From: Bacteroidales bacterium
GTDB taxonomy: Bacteria > Bacteroidota > Bacteroidia > Bacteroidales > UBA7960
NCBI GenBank assembly: GCA_007123065.1
Contig: SKSI01000099.1
Coordinates: 1 to 41,185, forward strand
DNA length: 41,185 nt
Direction of reading: 5' to 3'
Shown: piece after piece, positions 9,890-38,914 of the stretch
Numbering within the stretch: position 1 is the stretch's first letter
How the letters are laid out: every line of letters starts with the position of its first letter
The notes under the pieces: model-generated
The model's database searches: none
Told to the model about the DNA's origin: nothing
The model's input: the letters and a program-made list of their open reading frames with translations, nothing else
Made by a program: the position numbers and the translations under genes

Positions 9890-9943
9890 ACGGATGCAAA
9901 GTCTATTTTCGTAACTTAGCCTGAGTTCCGACAAAATCTTATT

Positions 9944-14324: not shown

Positions 14325-14369
14325 TATTCAGGTATTTGCTATATTTTTTACAAAATTAGCAAAACTTTC

Positions 14370-15158
14370 TCACACATGCACCTTTAATCCGTCAAAAGCG
14401 AGAAATACGTTCTCAGGCAAACCGGCCTGTATACTTTCGTGCAGGCCCATGAAATGGCTCAGATGGGTAATGTAGGCAGTCTCCGGTTTTAGTTCCCTGA
14501 TGATATCCAAAGCTTCATCCAATGAGAAATGGGAAATATGGGGAGATTTTCTCAGTGCGTTGATAACCAAAACCCTGGAGCCGATAATTTTTTTCTTTTC
14601 CTCATCAGAGATAAAGCTGGCATCTGTGATGTAGGTAAAGTCATTCATGCGAAACCCGAAAACGGGTAATTTATGGTGCAGCACTTCAATGGGAGTGAAT
14701 TCAAAGCCATTAATTCCAAAGGGTTTATTTTCAATCACATGAAATTGCAATTGAGGCGCGCCAAAAAATCTCTTTTCCGTAAGGATATAAGGAAACTCTT
14801 TATTGACGGAGTCGATCACTTTTTCAGTGGCATAAATGTCAACAGTTTTATTCAGCACATAATTGAAGGCACGCACATCGTCGAGACCTGCAATATGGTC
14901 GCGGTGCCCGTGTGTAAACAGAATGGCTGATATATCCTCAACCTTTTCCCGAATCATTTGATAACGGAAATCGGGTCCGCAATCAATCACGAAATTGTCG
15001 TCCCCGACCTGAATCATCACCGAAGTACGCAGTCGCTGATCACGCGCATCTGCACTCTTACAAACCTTGCAGTCGCAAGCCACAACCGGCACGCCGGTTG
15101 AAGTTCCGGTGCCGAGAAAGGTGATGGTGATCGGTTTCTTATTTGTCATGGGATCCAT
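14370..15158 (-). CDS. MBL-fold metallo-hydrolase (PhnP-like)
   Basis: LGTGTSTGVPVVACDCKVC, FTHGHRDHIAGLDD, ITHLSHFMG. Confidence 0.85.
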   Translation of the reverse strand: MDPMTNKKPITITFLGTGTSTGVPVVACDCKVCKSADARDQRLRTSVMIQVGDDNFVIDCGPDFRYQMIREKVEDISAILFTHGHRDHIAGLDDVRAFNYVLNKTVDIYATEKVIDSVNKEFPYILTEKRFFGAPQLQFHVIENKPFGINGFEFTPIEVLHHKLPVFGFRMNDFTYITDASFISDEEKKKIIGSRVLVINALRKSPHISHFSLDEALDIIRELKPETAYITHLSHFMGLHESIQAGLPENVFLAFDGLKVHV

Positions 15159-15169
15159 GTGCTCATTGT

Positions 15170-16090
15170 TTAATAAATCAGGTCTTCAACCATTTCGCGT
15201 GCTTCTTCCAAAACCTGGTCTGCCATCACTCCATTACCAAATGGGTTGCCAGACCAAACCAGTTTATAAAGATATAGTGTGCCTTCCTTTCCGTGGGGAT
15301 CGACCTTGTCATAAATCAACTGGTTCAGCAGTTTTTTGTTACCGAGATCGTCTTGCAGAATAAAACTCATGGCTTTCAAACAGCTGCCATCAACAAAAAG
15401 ATTGCCGGCATAGATGCCTGTAGGGGGAATCAGCTTCTCTACGGTAGTAATTTCAATACCCACGGGCGGTTCTCTGAAGCTGTCGTGGATTTGTCCATCG
15501 GCATACAGCGAGCCTTTTACAATGTATTGGTGATCAAGATATGCATTGGCCCTTTGTATGTTGCCATCCTTGAGTGCTTTTCGGATTTTTGTTGAGCTTA
15601 CTGTTTCATTCTCGATCAGTTTCAATGGTATCTCCTCCACCTTAAAGTCCATATCCCGGCTTAAACCGTGCAAATAGGAATAATCTCCTTCTCTGGCGTG
15701 ACCAAAATGGTGGTTATGTCCAACTACCACAACTTTTGCCATAAGATCACCAATCAGCATAGTTGTTACAAAATCGCGGGAGCTGGTTTTGCTGAATTCA
15801 AGCGTAAAAGGGATGATTATCAGGTTATCCAGCCCCGCTTTACGCAGTAGCTCAATTTTTTCATCTTGCGAATTAATCAATTTCAGATCTTTTTGATCAG
15901 GGTAGAGAACTTTGCGTGGATGCGGATCAAAGGTGATCAAAACCGACTCGCCATCAATTTCATCAGCAATTTCATTCAAACGGTTGATGATCAATTTATG
16001 TCCGATATGCACCCCGTCAAAGGAGCCGGTTGTAACAACTGCATTTTTAATCTTACCGGCAGCTTCGGCAGTGTGATGGTATACATTCAT
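15170..16090 (-). CDS. FAD synthetase family protein / RibF-like; flavokinase half lacks the usual motifs
   Basis: TGSFDGVHIGH, VVGHNHHFG, SSTKIRKALKDGNI (FMN adenylyltransferase motifs); no GFPTAN-like motif in the C-terminal domain. Confidence 0.85.
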   Translation of the reverse strand: MNVYHHTAEAAGKIKNAVVTTGSFDGVHIGHKLIINRLNEIADEIDGESVLITFDPHPRKVLYPDQKDLKLINSQDEKIELLRKAGLDNLIIIPFTLEFSKTSSRDFVTTMLIGDLMAKVVVVGHNHHFGHAREGDYSYLHGLSRDMDFKVEEIPLKLIENETVSSTKIRKALKDGNIQRANAYLDHQYIVKGSLYADGQIHDSFREPPVGIEITTVEKLIPPTGIYAGNLFVDGSCLKAMSFILQDDLGNKKLLNQLIYDKVDPHGKEGTLYLYKLVWSGNPFGNGVMADQVLEEAREMVEDLIY

Positions 16091-16119
16091 AATTGAAATT
16101 TTTTCTTTTTCGCAGGATT

Positions 16120-16752
16120 CTATTTTGATTTCACAAGGTATGCCAGTTTTTCAAGGGAGGTGATGATATCATATTCTTCGAGATAAATATCATCCGGGAC
16201 AGTCAGCGGAACAGATGTATAATTTAAAAGGCCTTTGATGCCGCAATCCAAAAGGTGTTTTGCTACTTCATGAGCAGCTTCAGGTGAAACAGTCAGTATG
16301 GCAATGGGAGATTGTTCTTCTTCAATTACGGATTGAACGTCTTTGATGTGATGGCAAGGGATCCCTGCTATGATCCGGTCTGTTTTTTGCGGGTCATTAT
16401 CAAAAGCTGCTACAATGCTCAGCTTATCCCGCTTACCGGAAAAATAGCTTGTAATGGCTCTTCCAAGGTTTCCCATCCCGACGATGATTACTTTTTGCCC
16501 ATCACTGCTGTCTATAATTTTCCCTATCAGGGCAACAAGATCTTTAATGACATAGCCTTTGCTCTGACTTCCTGAATAACCGATCAACATCAGATCCCGC
16601 CGAACCTGAACCGGCGTAAGGTTCATCATTCGGGCAAGCTCGTGCGAATAAATATTGGTTTTTCCTTCCCGTATGCTGTTGTATAAAATCCGCCGGTATT
16701 GACTAAGGCGTTCAATTGTTTTACCTGGAAGCTCTGACAATTTTTCTTTCAT
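16120..16752 (-). CDS. rex: Redox-sensing transcriptional repressor Rex
   Basis: 210 aa; RLSQYRRIL...SHELARMMNLTPVQVRRDLMLIGYSG, Rossmann VIIVGMGNLGRAI. Confidence 0.94.
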   Translation of the reverse strand: MKEKLSELPGKTIERLSQYRRILYNSIREGKTNIYSHELARMMNLTPVQVRRDLMLIGYSGSQSKGYVIKDLVALIGKIIDSSDGQKVIIVGMGNLGRAITSYFSGKRDKLSIVAAFDNDPQKTDRIIAGIPCHHIKDVQSVIEEEQSPIAILTVSPEAAHEVAKHLLDCGIKGLLNYTSVPLTVPDDIYLEEYDIITSLEKLAYLVKSK

Positions 16753-16778
16753 ATTTATGATTTGAAATGGTTGCTATT

Positions 16779-17900
16779 TTATGTAATTGGAAACTGAACG
16801 GTAAAACAGCTACCCTCGTTGGGCATGCTATCAACATTGATGCTCGCACCATATAACTCAAGAAGCTTTTTAACGATGGAAAGGCCCAGTCCGGTACCCG
16901 TGATGTGTTTGGTCTGTTCACTTTTAATGCGAACAAAATCTTCAAACAAAGATTTAATATCCTCTTCTTCCATACCGATTCCTGTATCCTGAACCTCTAT
17001 CAGGGTGCCGGAATTCTTACGTTTGAGGTTCACATCTACCCTGCCGCCTTGTTTGTTGTATTTAATAGCATTTGATATCAGATTATTCATAATGATCTCC
17101 ATCTCCTGCCTGTCAGCTTCCATAGATACCTTTTCGCCACAGTTCAGATAGACATCCACATCTTTTTGTATTGCCAGGGGTTGAAATGCATCGATGCATT
17201 GTTGTGCCAGTTCACAAAGCAACACCGGTTCCATCTTTCTTTTTTTCTTTCCTGATTCAATGCGTGTGATATCAAGCAAGTCAAGGATCAGGTTACGCAT
17301 ACCCTGAAGTCGGTGCATCGAGCGGTCGATGATATCCTGGTATTCGTGCAGGGAATCTCCCATTTTGCGATCCTGCATGAGCTGTAAATAACCTTCAACG
17401 GCATTCAATGGTGCCTTCAGTTCGTGAGAGAGTACCGACAGAAACTGAAAACGCACCTGACGTCCTTCCACATTTAGTTTCTGTGTCATCCTGCGCAGAA
17501 AAAGCTGCTTGGTGATCGTTTCGATGGAAGCCCTCAGTTCTTTGGGTGTAAAAGGCTTAGGGACAAAATCGTACGCACCCTGTTTGGTTGCTTTTACAGC
17601 CAGTTCGAGTGATGCATAAGAAGTGATCATCACCACAACAACATCCAGGTTGTTGTTATTAATAAACTCCAAAACATCAATACCTTGAATACCAGGAAGT
17701 TTATTATCCAGCAAAATGATGTCCAGATCGTTTTTTCGAAGAATTTCAAGAGCCTCCTCTCCTGTTTCAACGGCCTGGACATCAAACCCGAAATCTTCAT
17801 CCATAAAGGGATAGCTTACAGAATAGTTATCAAGTATCCTGCAAACTCCCATACGGATACCGGGTTCATCATCCACCACGAGGAGCTTTAGCTTTTCCAT
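16779..17900 (-). CDS. Response regulator receiver-histidine kinase hybrid (REC-HisKA-HATPase), no DNA-binding domain
   Basis: LLVVDDEPGIRMG...IILLDNKLPG...PKPF; FLSVLSHELKAPLNAVEGYL; GTGLGLSIVKKLLELYG. Confidence 0.92.
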   Translation of the reverse strand: MEKLKLLVVDDEPGIRMGVCRILDNYSVSYPFMDEDFGFDVQAVETGEEALEILRKNDLDIILLDNKLPGIQGIDVLEFINNNNLDVVVVMITSYASLELAVKATKQGAYDFVPKPFTPKELRASIETITKQLFLRRMTQKLNVEGRQVRFQFLSVLSHELKAPLNAVEGYLQLMQDRKMGDSLHEYQDIIDRSMHRLQGMRNLILDLLDITRIESGKKKRKMEPVLLCELAQQCIDAFQPLAIQKDVDVYLNCGEKVSMEADRQEMEIIMNNLISNAIKYNKQGGRVDVNLKRKNSGTLIEVQDTGIGMEEEDIKSLFEDFVRIKSEQTKHITGTGLGLSIVKKLLELYGASINVDSMPNEGSCFTVQFPIT

Positions 17901-17903
17901 GGA

Positions 17904-18302
17904 TCAGATTTTTAACAATTTATGGATCTCTTTTTGCAACTGGTCGTTACGTATCCCTTTATCAAGAAACAGTTCCGCCTTAATCCAGTCGCGCTCCTCC
18001 TCGGTGGTGACGTCAAACAACATACCCGTTTCTGCAGTAACGGCAGAAGCAATGATAACAGGAACATCCGGGTATTTATTCTTAATAATATGGCAAAGAA
18101 TAAAGCCGGTATCTTGCTGTTCCATCATCAGATCCAGAATGGCCAGATCCGGTTTTGTCTTTTCGATGATGGTTTCTGCTTCTTTTAGGGTATCGGCAGT
18201 TATCACTTCAAAACCCATATCCTCAATGGCTATTTTAAGCTGAAACAGATAATCGGTATCATCATCAACGATCAAAATCATTTTTTTTTCTTTTTTCAAC
18301 AT
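17904..18302 (-). CDS. Stand-alone response regulator receiver domain
   Basis: 132 aa; ILIVDDDTDY...DLAILDLMM...ELFLDKGIR; no output domain. Confidence 0.88.
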   Translation of the reverse strand: MLKKEKKMILIVDDDTDYLFQLKIAIEDMGFEVITADTLKEAETIIEKTKPDLAILDLMMEQQDTGFILCHIIKNKYPDVPVIIASAVTAETGMLFDVTTEEERDWIKAELFLDKGIRNDQLQKEIHKLLKI

Positions 18303-18314
18303 ACCTGGTGGCTT

Positions 18315-20345
18315 TTATTGCTGTTTTTCTTCTTTTGATTTTCGGGGTAGTTTCAGAATGAAAGTAGTTCCGGTCGCACCATCATTGGGATCAGCATTGG
18401 ATTCCACTTTAATGCTGCCGCTGTGCATCTTGATGATGCCATAAATGATCGGTAGCCCGAGTCCTGTACCTTTACCATTTTCTTTTGTTGTGAAAAATGG
18501 TTCAAACATCCTTTCCAGATTCTCTTTGGGAATGCCAATTCCGGTATCGCAAATGCGAATTTCCATGGCACCTTCCGTTAAAATTTCTCCAACCTTAATA
18601 GTCAACGTGCCCCCATCGGGCATGGCATCAATTGCATTTTTAAACAGATTGGAGAATACCTGTACCATTTGATCCTGGTCGCATTCCAGCACCGGATCCT
18701 GACTGTTGATCTCGACATTAAGCCCAACGTTTTCAGGAATTACAAAGGTCTTTAATCCATTGTTGATTAGTTTCTTAACATTCACTTCTTCGATACTTAC
18801 CTTACTCTTGCGTGCAAAGTTCAGAAGGCCTCCCACAATTTTCTTGCACCTGTCTGCCTGTTCCACAATCATCTTTAGATCCCTGTAGAGCGGGGAGGAT
18901 GGATCCATTTCATCAAGCAAAATATGGCTGTACATGATCACAACTCCCAAAGGGTTGTTAACCTCATGAGCAATACCAGCAGCAAGTTGCCCCATTGATG
19001 CAAGTTTTTCGCTTTGTTTCAGGGCGGCCTGTGTAGACGCCAGCTTTAGATTTGACACATCCAGCTCCTTGATATATTCGTGCAACTGATCAATCGTGTA
19101 GGGCAAACACATTTCCGATTCCGCCAGGCCTTGCAGAATCGCTATGGCGTGCTCGTAGCAAGTATCATAACCACAAGCGCCGCAATTAAGCTCATCCTCC
19201 TGTTCTCTTTTTCCCAATCTGGCCAACACCTCTCTGATCTCTTCATCGCGCGGAGGGCTTGGAAAACGCTGATCACTGGCCTTAAAACCGCGTCCGAGTT
19301 CGAGCTCCAGATAAGTAGACAAATCCTTTTGCCATTGTTCCAGGTCAATCCTGTCATATTTCCGCTTGGCAAAATTCGATATGTTTTTTCGCTTGTAGAA
19401 GAACTGACGGCTATGGCTCATTCCCGGACCATTGATACAGCCGTTGCAGCATAGCAGGTCAAACATCTTGGCCTCCAGGTAACCTTCTTCAAATTCACGC
19501 AACACTTCTATGATGTCGCGGCGCCCTTCTGCCACAATGATGTCCCCTTTCACAAAATCCTCCTCCAAATCGACAGTCTGCAACATCCCACCACTTATTG
19601 GAAAAATTGCACCTTTCCCTGCCAATGGGGGATCAAACTCTGAAGGTTCCACGTTGTGTTCGGTAAGTTTCTTTTCAGCGAACATCCGTCTAAGCTCAAC
19701 GAAGGAGATTACTTCATCAATCAGGCCTTCAAATTGCTCTTCTGCCGCTTCCACTTTCTTTGCGATACAGGGACCGATAAAAACCACCCGGGTATTCTGA
19801 CCATATTTTTGCTTAACCACCTTAGCTGTAGCGATCATTGGAGACACAACCGGAACGAGTGAATCAATGATCTGTGGATGGTGTTTTTCTACGTAGCTTA
19901 CAATGGCCGGACAGCTTGTTGAGATCAGCGGACGGTTTGGTTTTGACTCAAGCAGTTCCTTGTATCTGTTAGCGATCAGCTCGGCACCAAAGGCCACTTC
20001 AGTAACATAATCAAAGCCCAGAGCACGTATCATGCCGACAAAATGCCTGTAATCGTTAATATCGGTAAATTCACCGGCTATGCTTGGGGCAATAATAGCA
20101 GCTACCGGCGCATGTTCGTGCAAAAGCTTTTTTACTTTATCAATTGAAAATGCAAACATTTTGGCATCACGACTGCACACGCGAATGCAGTTTCCACAAG
20201 CGATGCACCTGGAAGGAATGATCTCCGCCTGGCCGTTCGCGATCTTGATCGCTTTTGCGGGACACTCACGCACGCAGGTATAGCATACCTTGCAACGGTC
20301 CTTAACCGTATAGATGATCTCTGCATTTTTGTGACTTTCGGCCAT
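18315..20345 (-). CDS. [FeFe]-hydrogenase-like sensor fused to histidine kinase (2x[4Fe-4S]-H-domain-FeS domain-HisKA-HATPase)
   Basis: [12 protein letters not shown] and [51 protein letters not shown](n)C FeS domain; [11 protein letters not shown] and [11 protein letters not shown] kinase motifs. Confidence 0.92.
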
Positions 20346-20359
20346 AAGGTTTCAATCGT

Positions 20360-22087
20360 TTACTTTAATACTGTCCGCTCTTTAAAATCAGTTTTGATCC
20401 AGTTCCGGGTAATTTCCTGATCAGGCTTAAAGCGATTGTCTTTAAAAAAAGCTGCTGTTGCTGGATTATCCTGTGGATATTGGAAAGCACAATTCTTTTC
20501 CAACTCCGCACACAGCTTCTTTCTGGCAATAACCTGTTCAAAGCCACGGCTGACAGGTTGTCCGCCACCGCCGACACAGCCATTCAAACAAGCCATCACT
20601 TCAACATAATGAATATCTTTGCGTCCATCCAGTAAAAGCTGTTGCATGTATTCTTCTGCATCACTGATAGAACTGACCCATGCAAAACCAATCTGGTGGT
20701 CACCAATCGTTACTTTGGTTTCCTTCCTCCCATAGATATTTTTCGGCGTATTAAACTTGAATGTATCCATTTTGCCACCCAACATCCGGTAAGTCTCCCT
20801 TGCTACCGCTTCTGCTTTTCCTCCTGAATAACCGAGCTTCCAGGCTGCTGCAGAAGATTGGACGTAAGGGTCGTCAAGTGCTTCACCTTCTGTATTTCGG
20901 ATGTCGATACCGGAGCTGCGCAACAGTTGAAGCAACTCACGTACGGTTAAAACAGCATCTGTTTCGGAGACCCCTTTATGGGTGTTTTCTTCCCTGGATG
21001 CTTCATACTTTTTCCCAACGCAAGGCATCACTGCAACGTTAAAAATCTGCTCCATCGGGATATCAGCTTCCGCGGCAAACTGCGTTTTAATTAACGTACT
21101 CAGAATTTGCTGCGGCGATTTGGTCTTAGACAAAGAGGTTATCCATTCAGGACGAAACTCCTCTACATAGCGCACCCATGCCGGGCAGCAAGATGACAAC
21201 AGTGGCAGGGAGTTTTCTTTATTCTGAATATGCGCAATCAGATTTCCGGCCTCCTCGCTGATGTTGATATCAGAGGCCACACCCAGATGAAATACCTTAT
21301 CGGCGCCACATCGTTTCAAAGCACCTGCGATTATATCCATCGGCTGGTCCTTTACTTTCAGACCCATCGCTTCAGCAACGGAACCGGCAACGGATGGACT
21401 GATCATAAACATTACCCTCACATCTTTTTTATCAAGTGCCGCATATACCTTTTCCTGATGCGAAATATCAGTCAGCGCCGCAGTCGGACACACCTGAATA
21501 CACTGTCCGCAATGTATGCAGCTGGAGATATTCAACCCTTTGTTAAATGCGCTGTTAACCATAGTCTGGTTGCCTCTTGAAATAAAATCAATGGCGGTTA
21601 CCAGTTGTACCTCTTCGCAGATACGGACACAGCGACTGCAAAGAACGCATTTGGCCGGGTCGCGCGCCACGCTGGTACTGGAATAATCAGGATAGTGTGT
21701 GTTTTTCTTACCAAAATACTTGCGTTCTTTCACATTCATCATCTCTGCCAGCCACTGCAGTTCACAATTTCCGTTGCGCTGGCAATAGAGGCAATCGTCG
21801 GGATGATTTGACAAGAGCAATTCGACCAAAGACTTGCGTGCCTGCATAACGCGCCGGGAATTGGTCTTGACTTTCATCCCCTCCTCCACAGGAAAAGAAC
21901 AGGATGTTACCAGATCACGCTTCCCTTCTACTTCCACGGCACACAACCTGCAAGCTCCTGTTGGAGAGAACCGGTTCATATGACAAAGCGTAGGGATCCG
22001 GATGCCGTGGCCACGCAGGGCAGCCAGCAGCGTTTCACCCTCTCTGACGGTTATGTGTTTATTGTTAACTTCGATCTGAAATTCCAT
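20360..22087 (-). CDS. hydA: [FeFe]-hydrogenase HydA-type catalytic subunit with NuoG-like N-terminus (divergent)
   Basis: 575 aa; 2Fe-2S CX(n)CRLC, His-Cys motif HPDDCLYCQRNGNCEL, 2x4Fe-4S, L1 SSCCPAW, L2 MPCVGKKYE, L3 VEVMACLNGCVGGGGQP. Confidence 0.92.
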   Translation of the reverse strand: MEFQIEVNNKHITVREGETLLAALRGHGIRIPTLCHMNRFSPTGACRLCAVEVEGKRDLVTSCSFPVEEGMKVKTNSRRVMQARKSLVELLLSNHPDDCLYCQRNGNCELQWLAEMMNVKERKYFGKKNTHYPDYSSTSVARDPAKCVLCSRCVRICEEVQLVTAIDFISRGNQTMVNSAFNKGLNISSCIHCGQCIQVCPTAALTDISHQEKVYAALDKKDVRVMFMISPSVAGSVAEAMGLKVKDQPMDIIAGALKRCGADKVFHLGVASDINISEEAGNLIAHIQNKENSLPLLSSCCPAWVRYVEEFRPEWITSLSKTKSPQQILSTLIKTQFAAEADIPMEQIFNVAVMPCVGKKYEASREENTHKGVSETDAVLTVRELLQLLRSSGIDIRNTEGEALDDPYVQSSAAAWKLGYSGGKAEAVARETYRMLGGKMDTFKFNTPKNIYGRKETKVTIGDHQIGFAWVSSISDAEEYMQQLLLDGRKDIHYVEVMACLNGCVGGGGQPVSRGFEQVIARKKLCAELEKNCAFQYPQDNPATAAFFKDNRFKPDQEITRNWIKTDFKERTVLK

Positions 22088-22105
22088 ATCAAAATATTAA
22101 TGATG

Positions 22106-24058
22106 CTATTTTATCGTGACGGCATTAAACTTGCAAACATCGTAGCAAGAACCACAGGCAATACATTTCTCCCTGACAATAAAGTGTGGATACCTGGGCG
22201 AGCCTATAATGGCATCTACGGGACATTTTTTAAGGCAGGCCGTACATCCCGTACATGCTTCGACATCAATTACAAAGATTCTTAAGTCTGTACAGTGGTT
22301 CGCCGGACATTTTCGTTCGAAAATATGCGAATCAAATTCATTTTTGAAAAACTTCAGGGTATTCAGAATCGCCATCGGCGATGACTTGCCCAATGCACAT
22401 AAGGAAGTATCACGGATCACTCCGGCAAGGCTTTTAAGCTGCATTACACCTTTAAAACGCTCCAGTGTCTGGAAGGACTGACCCTCTTCCGGTCGTCGCG
22501 TTGCTTGCTCCATGACCTCAAGCATACGTGCGGTGCCTTCCCTGCAGGGAATGCATTTCCCGCAACTCTCTTTTTTAAAGAATGCCGTAAAAAACTTGGC
22601 CATATCCACCATACACACTTCTTCATCAAGCACGACAAAGGCACCGCTGCCGAGCGCAGCACCAATTTGCTTCAAGGCATCAAAATCTATCAGTGTGTCA
22701 AGGGTTTCTTCCACAATGTAACTACCGCTGTTGATGCCCAGCACAATGGCTTTAAATGCCTTTTCATCCTTAAGTCCGCCTCCCACGAGGTCAATAACTT
22801 CCCTGAAACTGGCCCCCATAGGTACTTCGACCGTTCCATAATATTTTATGTTACCGGACAATGTAAACAACTTAGTCCCTTTACTGGTGTCAGTTCCCAG
22901 ATTCAAAAACCATTCCGGACCGTTTTTCAGTATGAGCGGGACATTGAAAAGGGTTTCCACGTTATTGACAATCGTAGGCTTATCCCATAACCCTCTTTCA
23001 GCAGGGAATGGAGGCTTGGAGGACGGCATGGCCCTTTTTCCCTCAATGCTGCTGTTAAGGGCTGTTTCTTCACCACAAACAAAAGCCCTTGCACCTTCTT
23101 TTACAACCACATCAATATTTACACCTGACTCGAATATGTGATGTCCGATGATACCGTATTCACGGGCTTGATCGATTGCCTCATTGAGTCTTTTGATAGC
23201 AAGTTTGAATTCTTTTCTGATAAAAATGAATGCTTTGCTGGCGCCGATGGCATACGCTGCGATCAAAACTGCTTCAATGAGCCTGTGGGGATTGCTTTCA
23301 ATGATCGCTCTGTTCATATAGCTACCCGGATCACTTTCTACAGCATTACAAACCAAATATTTCTGATCGCTGCCATACTGAAGTGCCGTGGCCCACTTTT
23401 TCCCGGCCAAATAACCACCTCCGCCACGACCTGCCAGTCTGCTTTGTTCAATTAACCCGCAAACCTGTTCGGGTGTGAGCCGTGATATCGTATCTACAAA
23501 GGCCTGGTAACCGCCTTTGGCAATACAGGCGGCCACAGATACCGGGTCTATTATTCCACAATGCTCAAGCAGGATACGATGCTGTGAGGAAAAGAAAGGA
23601 TGCTCCTCAACGGCATCTACACCCTCCCACTCCTGAAAAATTGGATTCTTATACTGACCGATTACCTCTGCCTCCGGGAGGTTGCCATTTAACACCTCAT
23701 CCAGCAGCAATTGAACTTTATCAGCCGTTACATTGGAAAATGAGATCCGTGATTTTCCCGGCAGCTGGACATCCACAATCGGTTCAGCTGCACACAAACC
23801 AACGCAACCACCTTCAACAAGTTCTGCATCGAACTCATGATCAACAAGGTAATTTCTGATCGCCTCAAAGCTTTTCTCTGCTCCGGCAATACGCCCGCAG
23901 CTGGCCATCCCGACATAAATGAGAGGCTTATGAACCCGTTCACCGGCAATATAAGACAACGGCTTTTTTAATGAAGGATCATTATGCCGTTGCGGATTCA
24001 GCAACACCTTGCTAATTAAAAATTCACGGACATCCCGGGTATGATCTAATGTCATCAT
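22106..24058 (-). CDS. hydB: NuoF/HydB-like flavoprotein subunit with N-terminal 2Fe-2S and C-terminal 2x[4Fe-4S] domains (divergent)
   Basis: 650 aa; GRGGGGYLAGKKW, CGEETALNSSIEGKR, ESCGKCIPCREGTARM, C-terminal CTGCTACLKKCP and CIACGSCYDVC. Confidence 0.9.
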   Translation of the reverse strand: MMTLDHTRDVREFLISKVLLNPQRHNDPSLKKPLSYIAGERVHKPLIYVGMASCGRIAGAEKSFEAIRNYLVDHEFDAELVEGGCVGLCAAEPIVDVQLPGKSRISFSNVTADKVQLLLDEVLNGNLPEAEVIGQYKNPIFQEWEGVDAVEEHPFFSSQHRILLEHCGIIDPVSVAACIAKGGYQAFVDTISRLTPEQVCGLIEQSRLAGRGGGGYLAGKKWATALQYGSDQKYLVCNAVESDPGSYMNRAIIESNPHRLIEAVLIAAYAIGASKAFIFIRKEFKLAIKRLNEAIDQAREYGIIGHHIFESGVNIDVVVKEGARAFVCGEETALNSSIEGKRAMPSSKPPFPAERGLWDKPTIVNNVETLFNVPLILKNGPEWFLNLGTDTSKGTKLFTLSGNIKYYGTVEVPMGASFREVIDLVGGGLKDEKAFKAIVLGINSGSYIVEETLDTLIDFDALKQIGAALGSGAFVVLDEEVCMVDMAKFFTAFFKKESCGKCIPCREGTARMLEVMEQATRRPEEGQSFQTLERFKGVMQLKSLAGVIRDTSLCALGKSSPMAILNTLKFFKNEFDSHIFERKCPANHCTDLRIFVIDVEACTGCTACLKKCPVDAIIGSPRYPHFIVREKCIACGSCYDVCKFNAVTIK

Positions 24059-24525
24059 GCTGAATTTTCTTTTTCCCTGAGTGATTTGATGAGTTCTTTG
24101 AGGCTTTGAAGATTCAGGTTGGTATGATACATATCATTCACCTCAATAAGGGGCGCAAGGCCGCAGGCACCAATGCAACTTACCACCTCCAGGCTAAAAA
24201 TTCCCTGTTTATCACATTCACCATCAGAAATTTTTAAAATGCGCTCAAGCTCTTTGAGCAAAGTGCCAGCACCGGCAACATGACAAGCGGTTCCGTGGCA
24301 TAACCGGATGTGGTATTTCCCAACAGGACCAAAACGGAAATTGTCATAAAACGTAGCTACCCCGTATATTTTGTTAACACTGATCCTGAGATAAGAACCT
24401 ACAGATGATATCATCTCTTCAGATAAAAAACCATTTTTATCCTGAATAGCCTGCAGCAAAGGAATCATATCCTCCCGCCGTCGATTCGGAAACTTTTCAA
24501 AAACATCTTCAAGTGAAATGCTCAT
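24055..24525 (-). CDS. hydC: NuoE/HydC-like 2Fe-2S thioredoxin-fold subunit
   Basis: 156 aa; LCHGTACHVAGA and SCIGACGLAPLIEVN; 4-bp overlap with hydB. Confidence 0.92.
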   Translation of the reverse strand: MSISLEDVFEKFPNRRREDMIPLLQAIQDKNGFLSEEMISSVGSYLRISVNKIYGVATFYDNFRFGPVGKYHIRLCHGTACHVAGAGTLLKELERILKISDGECDKQGIFSLEVVSCIGACGLAPLIEVNDMYHTNLNLQSLKELIKSLREKENSA

Positions 24526-24820: not shown

Positions 24821-25078
24821 ATGAGCCAGGGGAAGGCGGGAGAAATTGTAATATGCATGGGAAGCAGTTGTTTCTCCAGGGGAAATAAAATAGCTCTGGG
24901 TATCATACGGAGTTATTTAAGAGAGAATAGCCTCGAGGCTGAGATCACATTTCGCGGAGCACATTGTCTGGGTATTTGCGAACAGGGTCCTGTTTTGATA
25001 CTAAACGAAAAGCAGCACAAAAAGGTTATGCCGGATGACATTCCCGGAATGCTGGATGATTTTTTTGCAGAAAACTGA
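24821..25078 (+). CDS. 2Fe-2S thioredoxin-like ferredoxin domain protein
   Basis: 85 aa; CMGSSCFSRGNK...HCLGICEQGPVLILNEK (C-X4-C...C-X3-C). Confidence 0.87.
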   Translation: MSQGKAGEIVICMGSSCFSRGNKIALGIIRSYLRENSLEAEITFRGAHCLGICEQGPVLILNEKQHKKVMPDDIPGMLDDFFAEN

Positions 25079-25153: not shown

Positions 25154-27007
25154 ATGGAAACAATACGTATAGATCATGACCGTTGCAATAAATCGTATGC
25201 CTGCATCCGGGCGTGTCCGGTCAAAGCGATAACTACCCGGAACAAGGATGGCATGCCGGTTGTTAACCACGCGCGCTGTATAGGTTGCGGCAGCTGCCTT
25301 AGTGTTTGTGCCGTGGATGCCGTTTCACATTACAGCGATGTGGATACTTGCATCAACCTGCTTAAATCTGATGATCAAGTTGCGGCCATCGTAGATCCGA
25401 CGATCAGCGGAGAATTTCCGGACATCACCGATTACAGGAAGTTTGTGGAGATGATCCGACGACTTGGTTTCGACTATGTCAATGAAGTATCCTTTGGTGT
25501 CGATCTGGTGGCGTCCAAATACCATGACCTTCTTTCAAACTTTAAAGGGAAACACTACCTTTTGGCCAATTGCCCCACCCTGGTCTCCTATATTGAAAAG
25601 TTTTATCCGGAACTGACAGAAAACCTTGCGCCAATTGAAATTCCAATGACTGCAACGGCAAAAGTCGTGCGTGCTGCTTATGGCAAAAAATTAAAAGTGG
25701 TTTTTTTCGGCCCCTGCCTGTCTGCCAAACACGATGCACAATTGATTGATGGAGATGGGAAGGTGGATGCTGTGCTGACGTTCAGCGAGCTGCGGGCATT
25801 GTTCCGAAAGTTTGAAATCAAAGAGTCTAAAGTGGAATATTCCGATTTTGACCCTCCTATTGGATATTTGGGATCGATGTACCCCATTAGCAACGGCATC
25901 ATTTATGCAGCCGATATTGATGAGTCTGTGCTCAATGGAAAAGTGATCACTGTAGAATCGAAAAATAATTTTATGGATGCTGTTGAAGAATTCAGCAAGC
26001 ATCCGGAAAAATTGAAAAAACATTTCAATATTTTTTACCATTCAGGCTGCCTGACCGGGCCGGGTACAACTGATAGAAGCAATCAGTTTTTACGCCGTGC
26101 CCTGGTTACCAAATACGTGCATAAGCGTTTAAAAAAATTTGATAAGAAACAATGGCAGCTGGATATTGAAAAATACGGCAAACTGGATTTAAATCGCAGC
26201 TACATCAAAGATGACCAGCGCCTTCCTGAACCTGATCCTGATAGTGTTGAAGAGATCCTCAAAAGCCTTGGGAAACGTCTTGAAGAATCGGCCTCCTGCA
26301 ACGCATGTGGATTCAGAAGCTGCAACGACTTTGCCAGGTCAATAAGCCAGGGACTATCGAAACCTGAAATGTGCTTGAATTACTCTCTCTCCAGCAAGCA
26401 GGAATACATCAAAACACTGAAGAACAATAATGACAAGCTTCGAAAACAGCTTGATAAAACAGTTGAAAAGGATAAGGAACTGCATGAAGCACACCAGAAG
26501 ATCAAACAACGGTCGGAAACTACTTCCGCACTGCTTAAAAACCTGCCATCAGCTGCAGTAATTGTGGATGAAAAGCTCAAAGTGATCGAGTCAAACGAAA
26601 GCTTTATAAAAGTGCTTGGAGAAGATGCCGCAATGATCAATGAAGTGATTCCCGGCCTGATGGGTGCCGACCTGAAGACGCTGCTCCCCTACAATATATA
26701 CAATCTCTTTAACTATGTTCTTGAAAAAGGGGAGAATATCGTTGGAAAGGATGTAATGCACGAGGACAGGCTGCTGAATGTCAGCATCTACTCATTAAAG
26801 CCAAACAAGATCGTTGGTGGTGTTTTCAGAGATATGTATGTAGCCGAAGTGCGCCAGGAAGAAATCATCAACAGGGTTGGAGAAGTTATTGATGAAAATT
26901 TGAAGATGGTGCAGCAAATCGCCTTTTCTCTCGGGGAAGGAGCCAGCAATACAGAGAGAATGTTGAATTCAATCATCGAAACCTACAAAAAGACAGGAAA
27001 AAAATAG
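25154..27007 (+). CDS. [FeFe]-hydrogenase-like sensory protein with FeS and PAS domains (HydS-like, cofactor residues partly lost)
   Basis: 617 aa; CNKSYACIRACP, CIGCGSCLSVC, ANCPTLVSYIE, GPCLSAKHD, YHSGCLTGPG, CNACGFRSCX(n)C, PAS-like LLKNLPSAAVIVDEKLKVIESNESF. Confidence 0.9.
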   Translation: METIRIDHDRCNKSYACIRACPVKAITTRNKDGMPVVNHARCIGCGSCLSVCAVDAVSHYSDVDTCINLLKSDDQVAAIVDPTISGEFPDITDYRKFVEMIRRLGFDYVNEVSFGVDLVASKYHDLLSNFKGKHYLLANCPTLVSYIEKFYPELTENLAPIEIPMTATAKVVRAAYGKKLKVVFFGPCLSAKHDAQLIDGDGKVDAVLTFSELRALFRKFEIKESKVEYSDFDPPIGYLGSMYPISNGIIYAADIDESVLNGKVITVESKNNFMDAVEEFSKHPEKLKKHFNIFYHSGCLTGPGTTDRSNQFLRRALVTKYVHKRLKKFDKKQWQLDIEKYGKLDLNRSYIKDDQRLPEPDPDSVEEILKSLGKRLEESASCNACGFRSCNDFARSISQGLSKPEMCLNYSLSSKQEYIKTLKNNNDKLRKQLDKTVEKDKELHEAHQKIKQRSETTSALLKNLPSAAVIVDEKLKVIESNESFIKVLGEDAAMINEVIPGLMGADLKTLLPYNIYNLFNYVLEKGENIVGKDVMHEDRLLNVSIYSLKPNKIVGGVFRDMYVAEVRQEEIINRVGEVIDENLKMVQQIAFSLGEGASNTERMLNSIIETYKKTGKK

Positions 27008-27036: not shown

Positions 27037-28221
27037 ATGTCAGACAGATTCTATATTGAAGTCGGTTCAGCGCAGCGCAGCCATGTTGGCGAACGCATCT
27101 GCGGTGACGTGTTCCTTTCTGAAAAAGTGAAAGAGGAAGGGCGCACCGTGGTTGTATTATCGGATGGAATGGGACACGGAGTAAAAGCAAACCTCCTGGC
27201 AACCCTAACAGCAAAAATGTCACTGAATTTCACAAAAGAACACAAAGACGCACAAAAGATCGCAGAGATCATTATGAATACCCTGCCCGTATGCAGCGAA
27301 CGAAAAATCAGCTATGCAACCTTCTCTATTATAGATATTGAGAAAGACGGACAAACCACCATCCTGAACTATGATAATCCGGACCCGATTCATATTCGCG
27401 ACAATGAACTGTTAAAGCCGGAATGGCACAAAATGACGGTTGAAGGAGATGATCATACCAATAAAGAGATTACCGCGTGCACGTTTAAACTGCAGAAGGA
27501 AGATCGCATTGTAATCATGTCTGACGGGATTACCCAGTCGGGTCTGGGGAAAGGCCGTTATCTGCTAGGCTGGGGACTGGAAAATGTGGAGTATATGTTG
27601 CTCAGCCAGATTAAGGAGCAACCTGATATTTCAGCTGCAAAACTGTCGTCACTTCTGGTAAACAAGGCACACGCCAACGATGAATACCAGGCCAAGGATG
27701 ATACGAGCGTGGTTGTAGTATACTGCAGGGAACCCAGGCGCTTGCTGATCTCTTCTGGTCCACCCTTTGAGAAGGAAAAAGACGGGGAACTTGCAAATAT
27801 GGTTCGCGACTTTGAAGGGAAAAAAATAATTTGTGGCGGCACCACTGCTGACATCATCTCCCGCGAGCTGGATATCCGGATCGATGACTCGCTCGACTTT
27901 GACGACCCGGACCTCCCCCCCATATCACACATGAAAGGTATTGATCTTGTAACCGAAGGAATCCTGACTTTAAGCAAAACAGCCAATTTACTTGAACAAT
28001 ACGGGCCTGACTCAGATCCCGGCAAAGGGCCTGCAGACCTGATTGTACGTCAGATTATGGAAAGTGATGAGATCCATTTTATTGCGGGAACCGCCATCAA
28101 TGTAGCACACCAGGACCCAAATCTTCCTGTTGAGCTCGAGATCCGAAGATCTGTCATAAAAAAGATCGCCAATATTCTGGAACAGAAGTTTCTTAAAGAA
28201 GTAAGCCTGCGCTTCATCTGA
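27037..28221 (+). CDS. SpoIIE-family (PP2C-like) protein phosphatase with ~150-aa C-terminal extension
   Basis: 394 aa; GDVFLSE, LSDGMGHG, IVIMSDGITQSG, KDDTSVVVVYC metal-binding motifs. Confidence 0.9.
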   Translation: MSDRFYIEVGSAQRSHVGERICGDVFLSEKVKEEGRTVVVLSDGMGHGVKANLLATLTAKMSLNFTKEHKDAQKIAEIIMNTLPVCSERKISYATFSIIDIEKDGQTTILNYDNPDPIHIRDNELLKPEWHKMTVEGDDHTNKEITACTFKLQKEDRIVIMSDGITQSGLGKGRYLLGWGLENVEYMLLSQIKEQPDISAAKLSSLLVNKAHANDEYQAKDDTSVVVVYCREPRRLLISSGPPFEKEKDGELANMVRDFEGKKIICGGTTADIISRELDIRIDDSLDFDDPDLPPISHMKGIDLVTEGILTLSKTANLLEQYGPDSDPGKGPADLIVRQIMESDEIHFIAGTAINVAHQDPNLPVELEIRRSVIKKIANILEQKFLKEVSLRFI

Positions 28222-28305: not shown

Positions 28306-29352
28306 ATGCTTTCAGATGATATTTACATGCAAAGGTGTATTGACCTCGCCCTTCCCGGGCTTGGCCATGTTGCACCCAATCCGCTTGTAGGAGCTGTTGT
28401 TGTTTTGAAGGACAAAATTATTGGCGAAGGATTCCACAGACGATACGGTGGCCACCACGCTGAAGTGGAAGCAATTCAAGCTGTTGAAGATAAGTCATTG
28501 CTGAAAAGATCCACCTTGTACGTGAATCTGGAACCCTGCTGCCATCACGGCAAAACCCCTCCCTGCACAGACCTGATCATGAAGAGTGACATTCCACACG
28601 TTGTAATCGGAACGGTTGATCCGTTTGACGCCGTTGCAGGTAAGGGCATAGCCCGTTTAAGAAGCCAGGGAGTAAATGTTCGTGTGGGTGTTCTAAAGGA
28701 TGAGTGCAGAGAACTCAACAAACGCTTTTTCGCGTTTTATGAGAAAAAAAGGCCCTATATCATATTAAAATGGGCACAAACTGCTGATGGCTATATAGAT
28801 ATAAACCGATTGTCAAATGCAGAAAAACGTCCTACCTGGATCACCAGTGAGAAACTCCGAATGCTTGTACATAAATGGCGCACCGAAGAAGCTGCTATAA
28901 TGGTCGGAACTGAAACAGCACTTAAAGATAACCCCAAACTTAATGTCCGGGACTGGCACGGCCCAAACCCTTGTCGCATTGTTATCGACAGGAGGTTAAG
29001 GCTAAGTCCGGATTACAACCTGTTGGATGACACACAACCAACACTGGTATTTAACGAGATGCAAAGCAAAACGACAGGGAATACCAGATTCATTCAAATC
29101 CCCTTTAACCAGAACATATTGCCTCATGTAATGAAGTTTTTATTTGAAGAGCGGCTGCAATCATTAATTGTTGAGGGTGGAAGAAAGTTGCTGCAGTCAT
29201 TCATCGACAGCAACCTCTGGGATGAAGCAAGAATTTTCACAGGGAGTCAGTTTTTTTGTGATGGTATTAAGGCACCGAATTTGTTATCCGTAAAAAACAA
29301 AGCACACATCATCATCGGTCAGGAGGGCTTTTTTAGAATAAAAAACGCTTGA
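28306..29352 (+). CDS. ribD: Bifunctional riboflavin biosynthesis deaminase/reductase RibD
   Basis: 348 aa; HAEVEAI, EPCCHHGKTPPCTD, GTVDPFDAVAGKGI, reductase domain. Confidence 0.95.
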   Translation: MLSDDIYMQRCIDLALPGLGHVAPNPLVGAVVVLKDKIIGEGFHRRYGGHHAEVEAIQAVEDKSLLKRSTLYVNLEPCCHHGKTPPCTDLIMKSDIPHVVIGTVDPFDAVAGKGIARLRSQGVNVRVGVLKDECRELNKRFFAFYEKKRPYIILKWAQTADGYIDINRLSNAEKRPTWITSEKLRMLVHKWRTEEAAIMVGTETALKDNPKLNVRDWHGPNPCRIVIDRRLRLSPDYNLLDDTQPTLVFNEMQSKTTGNTRFIQIPFNQNILPHVMKFLFEERLQSLIVEGGRKLLQSFIDSNLWDEARIFTGSQFFCDGIKAPNLLSVKNKAHIIIGQEGFFRIKNA

Positions 29353-29970: not shown

Positions 29971-30075
29971 TTTTTTAAAAAATCTTTTCAATTATCTTTT
30001 TAAGATGGTTGTTTATTTTGCGAAATAAGCTTAATATTGTATTGCGTTTACCAAAACCAAATTCAAATTCAGAAT

Positions 30076-30840
30076 ATGTATAATTACCGACACCTCAGGA
30101 TCGGTGGGGTATTTTTTGCACTCATATTTTTTGCTGCCTGTGGTCCCGCAACCGAACCAGTTCAGGTTGAAGGAAACATCTATGCTGTAGACTCTTTGCA
30201 TGCTCCTGAGAAGGATCCTGAAATTGATTCCATCATTGCAATTTATCGAGATGACCTTAAACAGGAGATGACGCAGATTCTGGCTTTTTCAGATCAAACG
30301 ATGACCCGGGGCACCCCGGAAGGTCTTCTGAACAACTTTGTTGCCGATCTGGTTTTCGAAACCGGTCAGGACATCTATCAGGGTGAAGAAACTATAGATT
30401 TTTGCCTGCTGAATTATGGAGGATTGCGTGCTCCTATTCCTGAAGGCCCCGTAACCATGTCTCACGCTTTTGAATTGATGCCATTTGAGAATGAAATGGT
30501 CGTGATAACTTTAAGTCCAGAAAGAACCCTTGAACTTTTCGATTACTTGGCCGAATCCAATGTTGGGATGCCGGTTTCCGGTATCAGGATAAATATTGAT
30601 GACGGCCAGGTAATGGATGTCAGCATTGGCGGGAAGGACTTTGATCCGGAAAGAAATTACAACGTGCTTACTTCCGACTATCTTGCCGGTGGTGGTGATA
30701 ATATGAATTTTTTTCTTGAACCTTTGGATTATGAATATCTGGGTTTAAGGATCAGGGATGCCATAATCCAATATTTGCAGAAACAACATCAACAAGGTCT
30801 ACCTATTCAAAGCCGTCTTGACGGCCGAATCAGCAATTAA
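30076..30840 (+). CDS. 5'-nucleotidase C-terminal-domain lipoprotein (start likely at the internal ATG)
   Basis: Lipobox-like FFAACGP; NNFVADLVFETG, LLNYGGLRAPIPEGPVTMSHAFELMPFENEMV, YNVLTSDYLAGGGDNM. Confidence 0.88.
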   Translation: MYNYRHLRIGGVFFALIFFAACGPATEPVQVEGNIYAVDSLHAPEKDPEIDSIIAIYRDDLKQEMTQILAFSDQTMTRGTPEGLLNNFVADLVFETGQDIYQGEETIDFCLLNYGGLRAPIPEGPVTMSHAFELMPFENEMVVITLSPERTLELFDYLAESNVGMPVSGIRINIDDGQVMDVSIGGKDFDPERNYNVLTSDYLAGGGDNMNFFLEPLDYEYLGLRIRDAIIQYLQKQHQQGLPIQSRLDGRISN

Positions 30841-30842
30841 TT

Positions 30843-31760
30843 ATGCAGCAATTTAACAGACGAAAATTTCTTAAAACTTTAGGCGTTGCAGGAGCAACGT
30901 CCTTAATCGGAATCCCTGCCTGGGCCTTGCGCAATTCCGGAACCGGACACCTTACCATCCTCCACACCAACGACACCCACAGCCGTATCGACCCCTATCC
31001 CGATAACGATCCCAATTTCCCGGGCCAGGCTGGGTATGCCCGACGCGCTCATCTCATAAAAAAGGTAAGAGAAGATAATTCAAACCTGCTTTTACTTGAT
31101 GCCGGAGATATCTTCCAGGGCACACCTTACTATAACTTGTATGGCGGAAAAGTCGAACTGAAGCTGATGAGCAAAATGGGCTATGATGCAGCAGCATTCG
31201 GCAACCACGAGTTCGACAACGGACTCGATGGTTTTCTTGATGTGCTTCCATACGCAAACTTTCCTTTCCTGATTGCAAATTACGATTTCAGCAATACAAT
31301 CCTGAAGGGGAAAACCAAAGAATACATCATCAAAGAAAAAAATGAGAAAAAAATTGGAATCTACGGTCTGGGAATCCAGTTTGAAGGCCTTGTGAGCCGT
31401 GCTATGTATGGTGACACTGTTTATATTGATCCGATAGAGAAAGCAAGGGAAGTCGAAAATATTCTCCGTAAACGTCACCGATGCGACCTGATCATTTGTC
31501 TTTCACATCTGGGTTTTAATTATGAAGATGACAGAGTCAGCGATACCGTCCTGGCCGAACACACAATGAATACCGATATAATTATTGGTGGCCATACGCA
31601 CAGCCTGTTAGACCCGCCGGCACAAATTCAAAATCAAGCCGGCAAAACCGTATACATTGCTCAGGCCGGATACGGGGGTGCTTATTTAGGACGTCTTGAT
31701 GTTTTCTTCGATCCCGATCATCATCAAAAATTCGTAGAATCCAATACAACAAAAATTTAG
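30843..31760 (+). CDS. 5'-nucleotidase/metallophosphatase N-terminal-domain protein with Tat-like signal
   Basis: NRRKFLKTLGVAGATSLIG; LTILHTNDTHSRID, LLLDAGDIFQGTPYYN, AFGNHEFDNG, IIGGHTHS. Confidence 0.92.
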   Translation: MQQFNRRKFLKTLGVAGATSLIGIPAWALRNSGTGHLTILHTNDTHSRIDPYPDNDPNFPGQAGYARRAHLIKKVREDNSNLLLLDAGDIFQGTPYYNLYGGKVELKLMSKMGYDAAAFGNHEFDNGLDGFLDVLPYANFPFLIANYDFSNTILKGKTKEYIIKEKNEKKIGIYGLGIQFEGLVSRAMYGDTVYIDPIEKAREVENILRKRHRCDLIICLSHLGFNYEDDRVSDTVLAEHTMNTDIIIGGHTHSLLDPPAQIQNQAGKTVYIAQAGYGGAYLGRLDVFFDPDHHQKFVESNTTKI

Positions 31761-36541: not shown

Positions 36542-37441
36542 TTATCTAAGTACCTCTAACAATTCCACATCGAAAAAGATGGTTTCATCGGGGGGTACAA
36601 TGTCTGCGCCCTTATCACCGTAAGCGAGCCATGGCGGAAGGATCATACGCGCCCTTGAACCCTCTTTCAGCAAAGCAAACCCTTCATCCCAACCCCTGAT
36701 TACCTGCGATGAACCCAGCACAAACCTTACCGGTACCCCCCGTTGTATGGAAGAGTCGAAAAGTGTGCTGTCATTCAGGTATCCTGAGTAATGAGCCACA
36801 ATGATGTTTCCGGGAACAGGCAATGCACCGCTTCCTTTCTGCTTGACAATGATCTGAAGACCTGATTCGGTAACCAATGTGTCCGGTTCTTCAAACTCGA
36901 ACAAAACAGGAATATCAATTTCACCGGCATCAAGGATTTCCAGGTCAAAAATCAGATCAGCATTGGGTGGAATGGGGGCCCTTCCCGCTTTACCGTAGGC
37001 CAATGAATCAGGGATCCATAACCTTGCTTTATCCCCAACCCGAAGATTGGGTAAGGCTTTTTCCCAACCCTCAATCACCATTCCAGCTCCCAGAACAAAA
37101 GATATGGGTTCATCACGCTCATAGGAACTGTCAAACCTTGTCCTGTTTTCAGCCAAATAGGCTGCATAATGAACTTCAACACGCATATTCTTCGTCAGGC
37201 GCGGGCCTTCGCCATATTCCAGCAGAGTATAGGAAATACCAGAAGCTGTGGTTTTTTTTTCAAGTGCTGCCGTTTCCGTAAGATCAATCACATCAACTTC
37301 TTCCAGCTCCTCAGCAGGTATTTCCTCTACAACCGGAGCAGGCTCATCATCTTTTTCTGCAACCTGAAGCAGGCTACAGCCATTGAAGAGCAATGCAGAC
37401 AGCATAACTGTCGTTAAAAGCCACCTTAAGATCTTTTGCAT
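36542..37441 (-). CDS. FKBP-type peptidyl-prolyl isomerase lipoprotein with two FKBP domains
   Basis: Lipobox LFNGCS; two FKBP units (VHYAAYL...FDSSYERDEPISFVLG and AHYSGYL...FDSSIQRGVPVRFVLG). Confidence 0.92.
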   Translation of the reverse strand: MQKILRWLLTTVMLSALLFNGCSLLQVAEKDDEPAPVVEEIPAEELEEVDVIDLTETAALEKKTTASGISYTLLEYGEGPRLTKNMRVEVHYAAYLAENRTRFDSSYERDEPISFVLGAGMVIEGWEKALPNLRVGDKARLWIPDSLAYGKAGRAPIPPNADLIFDLEILDAGEIDIPVLFEFEEPDTLVTESGLQIIVKQKGSGALPVPGNIIVAHYSGYLNDSTLFDSSIQRGVPVRFVLGSSQVIRGWDEGFALLKEGSRARMILPPWLAYGDKGADIVPPDETIFFDVELLEVLR

Positions 37442-37471
37442 GGTAAAACCAGGTTATTGGTTTAACATTAG

Positions 37472-38362
37472 TTACTGTGCGATTTGTGCATCCACCACCT
37501 CTACATCAAAAATCAATGTGCTATATGGAGGAATTACAGGAATATCCATTCTGTCACCATATCCAAGATAAGAAGGGATGATCAGTGTTGCATTTCCTCC
37601 GACATGCATCATACCGATTCCTTCGTCCCAGCCGGGAATAACCCACCCTTGTCCAACAATGAACTCCAGAGGTTCTCCCCTGTCGTGAGATGAATCAAAA
37701 ACTGTCCCATCAAGCAAACGGCCTTCATAATGCACGGATACCATATCTCCGGATTCCACTTTCCGCCCTTCACCCCGTTCAAGCTGTATGTAATACAATC
37801 CACTAGAGGTAGGAGTCACATCGATTCCCTCTTCCTTAATATATTCCAGCAGCTTTTCATCTTCCTCTTCAGCACGTTGAAGATTCTTTTTCATTTGCTC
37901 CTCCATAATCCTTTGCTCTTCAAGAGCAAACTCTTCATCTGTAAAAGCAGCGATCAGCCTGATATGAAAAAGCAGATCATCGCCAGACTCCACAAAAGGC
38001 GGAGGCTCCATCATGCCGGCGGTATTGATAAAAAAGTTTCTGGCATTCAGCTTAAAAGATGCACTGTCACCAACAGCCATCATTCCCATTGCTTCATAAA
38101 TGTCACCAGAATAGCCCGATGTATCAAGCGGAATAAAAACGGGCATATCCGTATCCGCGCTATTGAAAAGAATGCTATCGTTTACACTATAAGACATATG
38201 CATACTGAGCATCATACCCATCTCGGGTTTTTCCTTTCCGCTCTTCTCGTGAAATACATATTTAATGCCACTCTCTGTTTCCTGAAACTGTAAATCACCG
38301 CTTGAGCAGGAGCCCATAATCAGGGCTATCAAGGCGATGAACAAAATTTGAATGTTTTTCAT
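37472..38362 (-). CDS. FKBP-type PPIase lipoprotein (degenerate N-terminal plus canonical C-terminal FKBP domain)
   Basis: Lipobox LIMGSCS; VSVHYEGRLLDGTVFDSSHDRGEPLEFIVGQGWVIPGWDEGIGMM. Confidence 0.92.
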   Translation of the reverse strand: MKNIQILFIALIALIMGSCSSGDLQFQETESGIKYVFHEKSGKEKPEMGMMLSMHMSYSVNDSILFNSADTDMPVFIPLDTSGYSGDIYEAMGMMAVGDSASFKLNARNFFINTAGMMEPPPFVESGDDLLFHIRLIAAFTDEEFALEEQRIMEEQMKKNLQRAEEEDEKLLEYIKEEGIDVTPTSSGLYYIQLERGEGRKVESGDMVSVHYEGRLLDGTVFDSSHDRGEPLEFIVGQGWVIPGWDEGIGMMHVGGNATLIIPSYLGYGDRMDIPVIPPYSTLIFDVEVVDAQIAQ

Positions 38363-38383
38363 GAATGATAAGTTTGTTTAAGA

Positions 38384-38914
38384 TTATAAAAGATTAATTA
38401 ATTCTATTTTGTAAACCAGACTGGCACGTCGTGGAATTTTATTACCGTCACCAGGTACTCCGTAAGCCAGATGTGATGGAAGGACGAAGGTAGCTTGATC
38501 ACCTTCTCGCATCATCAATATCCCTTCTTCTATACCGCTTTCAATACCCCCTCTGCCAACTGTAAATACTTTTGTTCCCAGGTTCTCTGACGAATAAACC
38601 GGATCACCTGTAATCAGGTAGATGGCATACCTGATCTCTGCCCTGTCGCCATATGAAGCCTTTGGTCCGTAACCCAGACGCTCAATACTGTAACGCAACC
38701 CACTGCCGCTCCTGTTCATTTCCCAGCCATATCTTTCAATAAAATCATCAATAGCCTCCTCCTCCAGATCGATCAGGTATATGTTGCTCTCAACAAAAGC
38801 TTCGTGAACTGACGAATGGTCAGGTAAAGGTTGCTTATCCACCTTACTTTGACAGCCCTGCAGGATAAAAAGCAGACCCAACATAATGGTTGAATACATC
38901 AAATACCTGAACAT
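38384..38914 (-). CDS. FKBP-type PPIase-like lipoprotein, single domain
   Basis: Lipobox LQGCQS; GIEEGILMMREGDQATFVLPSHLAYGVPGDGNKIPRRASLVYKIELI. Confidence 0.85.
   Translation of the reverse strand: MFRYLMYSTIMLGLLFILQGCQSKVDKQPLPDHSSVHEAFVESNIYLIDLEEEAIDDFIERYGWEMNRSGSGLRYSIERLGYGPKASYGDRAEIRYAIYLITGDPVYSSENLGTKVFTVGRGGIESGIEEGILMMREGDQATFVLPSHLAYGVPGDGNKIPRRASLVYKIELINLL

Follow-up and report, generated by a model that had tools for sequence, protein, structure and literature searches.

Known sensory [FeFe]-hydrogenase systems

Neither the signal that sensory [FeFe]-hydrogenases detect nor the need for the H-cluster in their signalling has been settled. Among the closest described systems is the group C sensory [FeFe]-hydrogenase operon of Ruminococcus albus, in which the genes for a 2Fe-2S protein, HydS and a SpoIIE phosphatase are followed by HydA2. 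Expression data from R. albus support a regulatory role of HydS/phosphatase sets in fermentation. In the hfsABCD operon of Thermoanaerobacterium, the HydS-PAS protein HfsB is encoded beside the serine phosphatase HfsC, and the operon ends in the hydrogenase HfsD. Deletion of hfs reroutes fermentation and raises hydrogenase activity, indicating a regulatory role.

Lys358 (CpI numbering) holds the [2Fe] subcluster of the H-cluster and is required for [2Fe] binding; no paper on K358 and C362H variants was found in the open-access literature. R. albus HydS keeps Lys358 and all ligand Cys. The ligand Cys are retained in the published sensory enzymes, as are the residues that form hydrogen bonds to [2Fe] (PMC10055695). 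This includes the group C protein TmHydS of Thermotoga maritima, which has an H-domain, a C-terminal cluster and a PAS domain, lacks CpI C299, and binds a functional H-cluster (PMC10055695). In catalytic enzymes, the exchange of Cys for His at [4Fe-4S]H is tolerated with altered activity (PMC11376134). The C-terminal cluster of the group D protein TamHydS does not become reduced under H2, and a Cys-to-Ala change in this protein leads to a [3Fe-4S] cluster. In group C1 enzymes of Hydrogenedentota, the H-cluster motifs are reported to be hardly detectable and H2 sensing is doubted (PMC11406978); no ligand-by-ligand or repeated-loss analysis was found in its text.

A HydS-SpoIIE gene set from Bacteroidales

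The analyzed stretch of DNA, below called the window, has a length of 41,185 nt and stems from a Bacteroidales bacterium. The following genes are central to the analysis:

18315..20345, minus strand: canonical kinase-fused HydS paralogue with CCNGC and K358 kept, internal control
20360..24525, minus strand: HydABC-type hydrogenase genes with a canonical catalytic subunit, divergent from the HydS-like set
24821..25078, plus strand: thioredoxin-like [2Fe-2S] ferredoxin gene, 85 aa, first of the gene set (Pfam 2Fe-2S_thioredx, E=3.7e-9)
25154..27007, plus strand: HydS-like PAS protein with a degenerate H-cluster site, 617 aa (P0001)
27037..28221, plus strand: SpoIIE-type PP2C phosphatase, 394 aa (Pfam SpoIIE, E=3e-17)

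The gene order 2Fe-2S/HydS/SpoIIE is shared with R. albus, and the neighbourhood of a HydS-PAS protein and a phosphatase is shared with hfsABCD. In contrast to both operons, no hydrogenase of the HydA2 or HfsD type follows the SpoIIE gene; the next ORF (28306-29352) is RibD-like, judged from its sequence, and the set is divergent to HydABC. On the opposite strand, the genes for HydG, Rex, response regulators, the kinase-fused HydS and HydABC (12897-24525, minus strand) are grouped in a regulon-like manner. Defence-system and Rfam searches gave no matches.

The conservation of the gene set was quantified in the orthologue loci. A 2Fe-2S homologue is present upstream of the HydS-like gene in 110 of 139 loci, the same place as in R. 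albus. A SpoIIE gene lies directly downstream in 134 of 144 loci, with a median gap of 15 bp, and its catalytic acids are invariant (136/136), also beside sensors that have lost all cluster Cys. The phosphatase is the probable output partner of the HydS-like protein.

Domain layout and the register of the L3 motif

The ORF, its frame and its coordinates were confirmed as proposed by the sequence-only reading. The protein is of the HydS/group C type, and its features are the following (all on the plus strand):

25163..25324: 2x[4Fe-4S] ferredoxin domain (Pfam Fer4_10/Fer4_21)
25193-25195: codon of Ser14, in place of the second Cys of Fd1; the remaining 7 Cys are present
25376..26059: H-cluster domain (Fe_hyd_lg_C, Pfam PF02906, E=2.5e-34, own-genome search)
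25568..25573: L1, with Asn139 (CpI 299 position) and Cys140 (C300 ligand, kept)
25715..25726: L2, from Cys188 (C355 ligand, kept) to Ala191 (K358 position)
26036..26050: L3, with Tyr295 (CpI 498), His296 (C499-equivalent, Cys lost), Ser297, Gly298 and Cys299 (C503, kept)
26297..26374: C-terminal FeS motif CxxCxxxxCx16C, all four Cys kept (Pfam FeS)
26531..26848: PAS domain, residues ~460-565 (PAS_8 in the family, AF2 secondary structure, R. albus HydS alignment)

The order of ferredoxin, H-domain, FeS motif, PAS and C-terminal helix is that of R. albus HydS, with 23% identity over the full length. In the AF2 secondary structure, a coiled-coil helix lies N-terminal to the PAS domain and a conserved C-terminal helix after it; the latter aligns with that of R. 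albus HydS. The kinase-fused paralogue is homologous in the Fd, H-domain and FeS modules, with 34-40% identity, but it keeps four Cys and Lys358 and has a histidine kinase as output where the HydS-like protein has PAS/SpoIIE. The second ferredoxin motif and the FeS motif are intact, as had been claimed, whereas the PAS domain, described as intact as well, is present but weak in this protein (Pfam PAS, E=0.07); PAS_8 was matched in 56 of 67 family members (E<=0.1). The AlphaFold2 model is of moderate quality (pLDDT 70, L3 below 50), and its fold matches CpI and HydABC in broad terms only.

The motifs FYHSGC in L3, GPCLSAKHD in L2, ANCP in L1 and CNKSYAC in Fd1 are all present as quoted. However, the assignment of Tyr as the residue that replaces an L3 ligand turned out to be a register error of one residue. 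Among the full-length relatives found across the order, L3 reads F-Y-C-E-G-C in most and F-Y/H-C-D-G-(N/S/G)-C in several, the latter having the usual CxxxC distance between the Cys. These orthologues fix the register, so that Tyr295, which is conserved in the clade, is the residue before the ligand and His296 is at the place of the lost Cys. Tyr as a replacement ligand is ruled out, because it also occurs in orthologues with all four Cys. The set of ligands (C300, C355, C499, C503) is therefore incomplete, with three Cys kept and the C499-equivalent replaced by His296, and the Lys358 position, which contacts the [2Fe] subcluster, is Ala191. The layout and the SpoIIE and 2Fe-2S neighbours of group C sensory HydS are found at this locus, but the conservation of the ligand Cys is not.

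Asn at CpI 299 is present, but it is not diagnostic of a degenerate site, because only 17% of the published sensory hydrogenases have a Cys at this position (PMC10055695).

Ligand states across Bacteroidales orthologues

An order-wide search yielded full-length relatives in many families, and 147 SpoIIE-type Bacteroidales sequences formed the orthologue set. A profile search of contigs with the same-family alignment yielded close relatives only; the titled close relatives of the source genome are metagenome-assembled genomes. The substitutions are real and fixed in the clade: 38 orthologues of the same family have Ser/Thr in Fd1, Ala/Thr/Val in L2 and a non-Cys residue at the L3 ligand position, and therefore neither chance nor a sequencing error explains the degenerate motifs.

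The loss of Lys358 is not special to the protein of the window, but common to nearly the whole clade (absent in 145 of 147 orthologues, kept in 2). The Cys499-equivalent is lost in 67 of 147 orthologues, and the residues at this position are Cys (80), Asn (25), His (18), Asp (13), Lys (5), Gly (5) and Arg (1). The other cluster Cys are lost more rarely, namely the L2 Cys in 11, the C503-equivalent in 10 and the L1 Cys in 7 orthologues. All four are absent in 7 sequences of two families (f8, f42). The clade differs from TmHydS, as it reliably conserves neither the ligand Cys nor the residues that form hydrogen bonds to [2Fe]. The A230 and S323 positions are invariant in the kinase-type HydS, but relaxed in the SpoIIE-type orthologues. 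The clade also differs from the Hydrogenedentota C1 enzymes, which belong to another phylum and subgroup and are of the kinase type instead of PAS/SpoIIE. In the open-access literature, no earlier report of a ligand-loss series in Bacteroidales was found.

All 64 sequences of the kinase-fused HydS group retain the four Cys as well as Lys358, and their Cys499-equivalent column is always Cys. Three further rows in this bin are truncated SpoIIE-type members and are outside the 64.

These distributions bear on whether the H-cluster is still bound, with His296 ligating [4Fe-4S] instead of Cys499, so that the protein would be a tuned H2 sensor. Three ligand Cys are kept, the bridging Cys503-equivalent among them, the adjacent HydABC and HydG are intact, and Cys-to-His variants of [4Fe-4S]H stay active in catalytic enzymes (PMC11376134). 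His296 alone can therefore not exclude an H-cluster. Nevertheless, a tuned sensor is unlikely, as the losses extend to the Lys358, A230 and S323 positions, the ligand position varies between His, Asn and Asp within the family of the source genome and includes Lys, Gly and Arg outside it, and seven orthologues are free of ligands.

The Fe-S sites outside the H-domain gave a different picture. The C-terminal FeS Cys C382, C385 and C407 are present in 147/147 and C390 in 146/147 orthologues. Seven of the eight ferredoxin Cys are essentially invariant, and only the second Cys of Fd1 is variable. The Ser in Fd1 is real, but homoplastic: it occurs in 47 of 145 orthologues, and the tree shows about 7 changes at this position. 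In the source lineage, two clusters with exactly three Cys are fixed, one in the H-domain and one in Fd1, and they could be labile-iron clusters that were selected for sensing iron, oxidants or NO; the [3Fe-4S] cluster of the TamHydS Cys-to-Ala variant would be in line with this. Such a role appears improbable, because the Fd1 and L3 losses are uncoupled across the tree and Fd1 still has its four Cys in the majority of orthologues.

Repeated loss under purifying selection

For the tree, the trait columns were omitted, and R. albus, Monoglobus, Acetoanaerobium and canonical PAS-HydS served as the root. Some deep forks of this tree are weakly supported. At least 7 independent losses were inferred for the Cys499-equivalent; the numbers of changes are 3 for the L2 Cys, 2 for the L1 Cys, 2 for C503, 3 for Lys358 and about 7 for the second Cys of Fd1. 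A single ancestral loss of Cys499, with all Cys499-lost sequences in one clade, was rejected (p-AU 0.003; AU test on a 43-row subset of 141 rows).

For unsaturated pairs, dN/dS values were 0.02-0.06 overall and 0.02-0.07 in the H-domain, far from the value of 1 that had been named as the mark of a pseudogene. Relaxed selection on a decaying gene could account for the stepwise disappearance of cofactor residues from several lineages, but it is extremely improbable, as the operon is conserved, the Fe-S Cys are invariant, and dN/dS is low. Frames are intact in nearly all of the about 150 orthologues, the SpoIIE partner is invariant, and a pseudogene was rejected on the dN/dS values. The H-cluster site was lost under constraint and did not decay, in accordance with the earlier proposal.

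Proposed function of the degenerate sensor

We assign a probability of roughly 60% to the reading that 25154-27007 encodes a SpoIIE-coupled HydS-type sensor, the H-domain of which is now a pseudo-hydrogenase without an H-cluster and probably blind to H2. The clade as a whole would have lost Lys358, and the source lineage would then have lost the Cys499-equivalent, now His296. As both residues are lost, most likely no functional [2Fe]H is present and no H2 sensing occurs at the H-cluster. The argument is based on Lys358 with its background role in [2Fe] binding, the changes in the pocket and the ligand-free lineages, and not on His296. Nar1/NARFL-type hydrogenase-like proteins, which are eukaryotic Fe-S assembly factors, carry a cluster with four Cys but lack [2Fe].

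Most simply, the H-domain would now serve as a scaffold that lacks a functional [2Fe] subcluster, and redox would be read via the other clusters and the PAS domain to SpoIIE, because the clade reliably keeps neither the ligand Cys nor the [2Fe] hydrogen-bonding set, whereas all else is conserved. Cys140, Cys188 and Cys299, possibly together with His296, could hold a three-Cys [4Fe-4S] or a [3Fe-4S] cluster. The protein retains its ferredoxin clusters, the FeS motif near the C-terminus and the PAS domain, and the probable signal would be the cellular redox or ferredoxin state. From PAS it would pass through the C-terminal helix to the phosphatase SpoIIE, which might adjust the fermentative hydrogenase output. 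The C-terminal cluster may take part in the signalling, although that of TamHydS is not reduced by H2. The set of options offered by the sequence-only reading, an altered cluster, no H-cluster or a pseudo-sensor acting on SpoIIE, is still the best reading, and it is strengthened by the lineages that lost all four Cys; the cofactor content, the signal, the contact with SpoIIE and the target are inferred.

It is possible, at somewhat less than even odds, that the whole Bacteroidales HydS-SpoIIE clade is H2-blind. Its ancestor would have lost [2Fe] together with Lys358, an empty or [4Fe-4S]-only pocket would then have eroded at least 7 times, and the hydrogenase fold would have been kept purely as a signalling scaffold. 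Against the lack of an H-cluster stand the 80 of 147 orthologues with four ligand Cys, which might bind one without Lys358.

The dismantling of the site, repeated across many Bacteroidales under strong selection, suggests that these sensors now respond at this site to something other than hydrogen. Counting Fe_hyd_lg_C/group C matches in Bacteroidales as H2 sensors may overestimate H2 sensing. A natural series from a full ligand set via a partial one to none, within one syntenic family, makes the question of the need for the H-cluster directly testable, and kinase-type HydS with an intact site, present in many of these genomes, can serve as controls.

Canonical hydrogenases and sensors in the same genomes

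In the source genome (81%-complete assembly), three Fe_hyd_lg_C proteins were found. All are encoded in the window; besides the protein of 25154-27007, they are the catalytic subunit and the kinase-fused HydS. HydG and catalytic-type Fe_hyd_lg_C proteins are kept in 23 of 23 genomes tested, those with the most degraded sensors included, and a lost maturation machinery is therefore ruled out as the cause of the degeneration.

The canonical kinase-fused HydS is encoded about 5 kb away, and the degenerate protein could also be its non-sensing partner or a dominant-negative subunit, a pattern that resembles pseudo-enzyme partners. The two genes are divergent neighbours in the window and near each other in many relatives, with another hydrogenase/kinase-HydS match in 57 of 88 loci tested. 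Such a partnership is improbable, however, as the near-constant neighbour is SpoIIE instead and the clade persists in genomes without a detected kinase-fused HydS, such as those of the all-Cys-lost family f42.

Some genomes of the source family also hold a canonical 2Fe-2S/HydS-PAS/SpoIIE/hydrogenase operon (L043-L047), with CPGGC or CAGGC and Lys358 kept in HydS, and thus degenerate and canonical sensors coexist. In another genome (G344, L112), two divergent SpoIIE-type HydS genes are located close to each other (4106-5929, minus strand, and 8697-10511, plus strand), and their products have 38% and 42% identity to the protein of 25154-27007. Parabacteroides has a separate short Fe_hyd_lg_C type of about 460 aa without PAS (L180, 4977-6356), the gene of which adjoins HATPase, DRTGG and PHP genes. 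ORFs of similar length are weak matches in the family of the source genome.

Elsewhere in the window, reading of the translations alone showed a 5'-nucleotidase (UshA-like) gene that is apparently split into two adjacent ORFs (30037-30840 and 30843-31760, plus strand), and three tandem genes for FKBP-type peptidyl-prolyl isomerase-like lipoproteins (36542-38914, minus strand).
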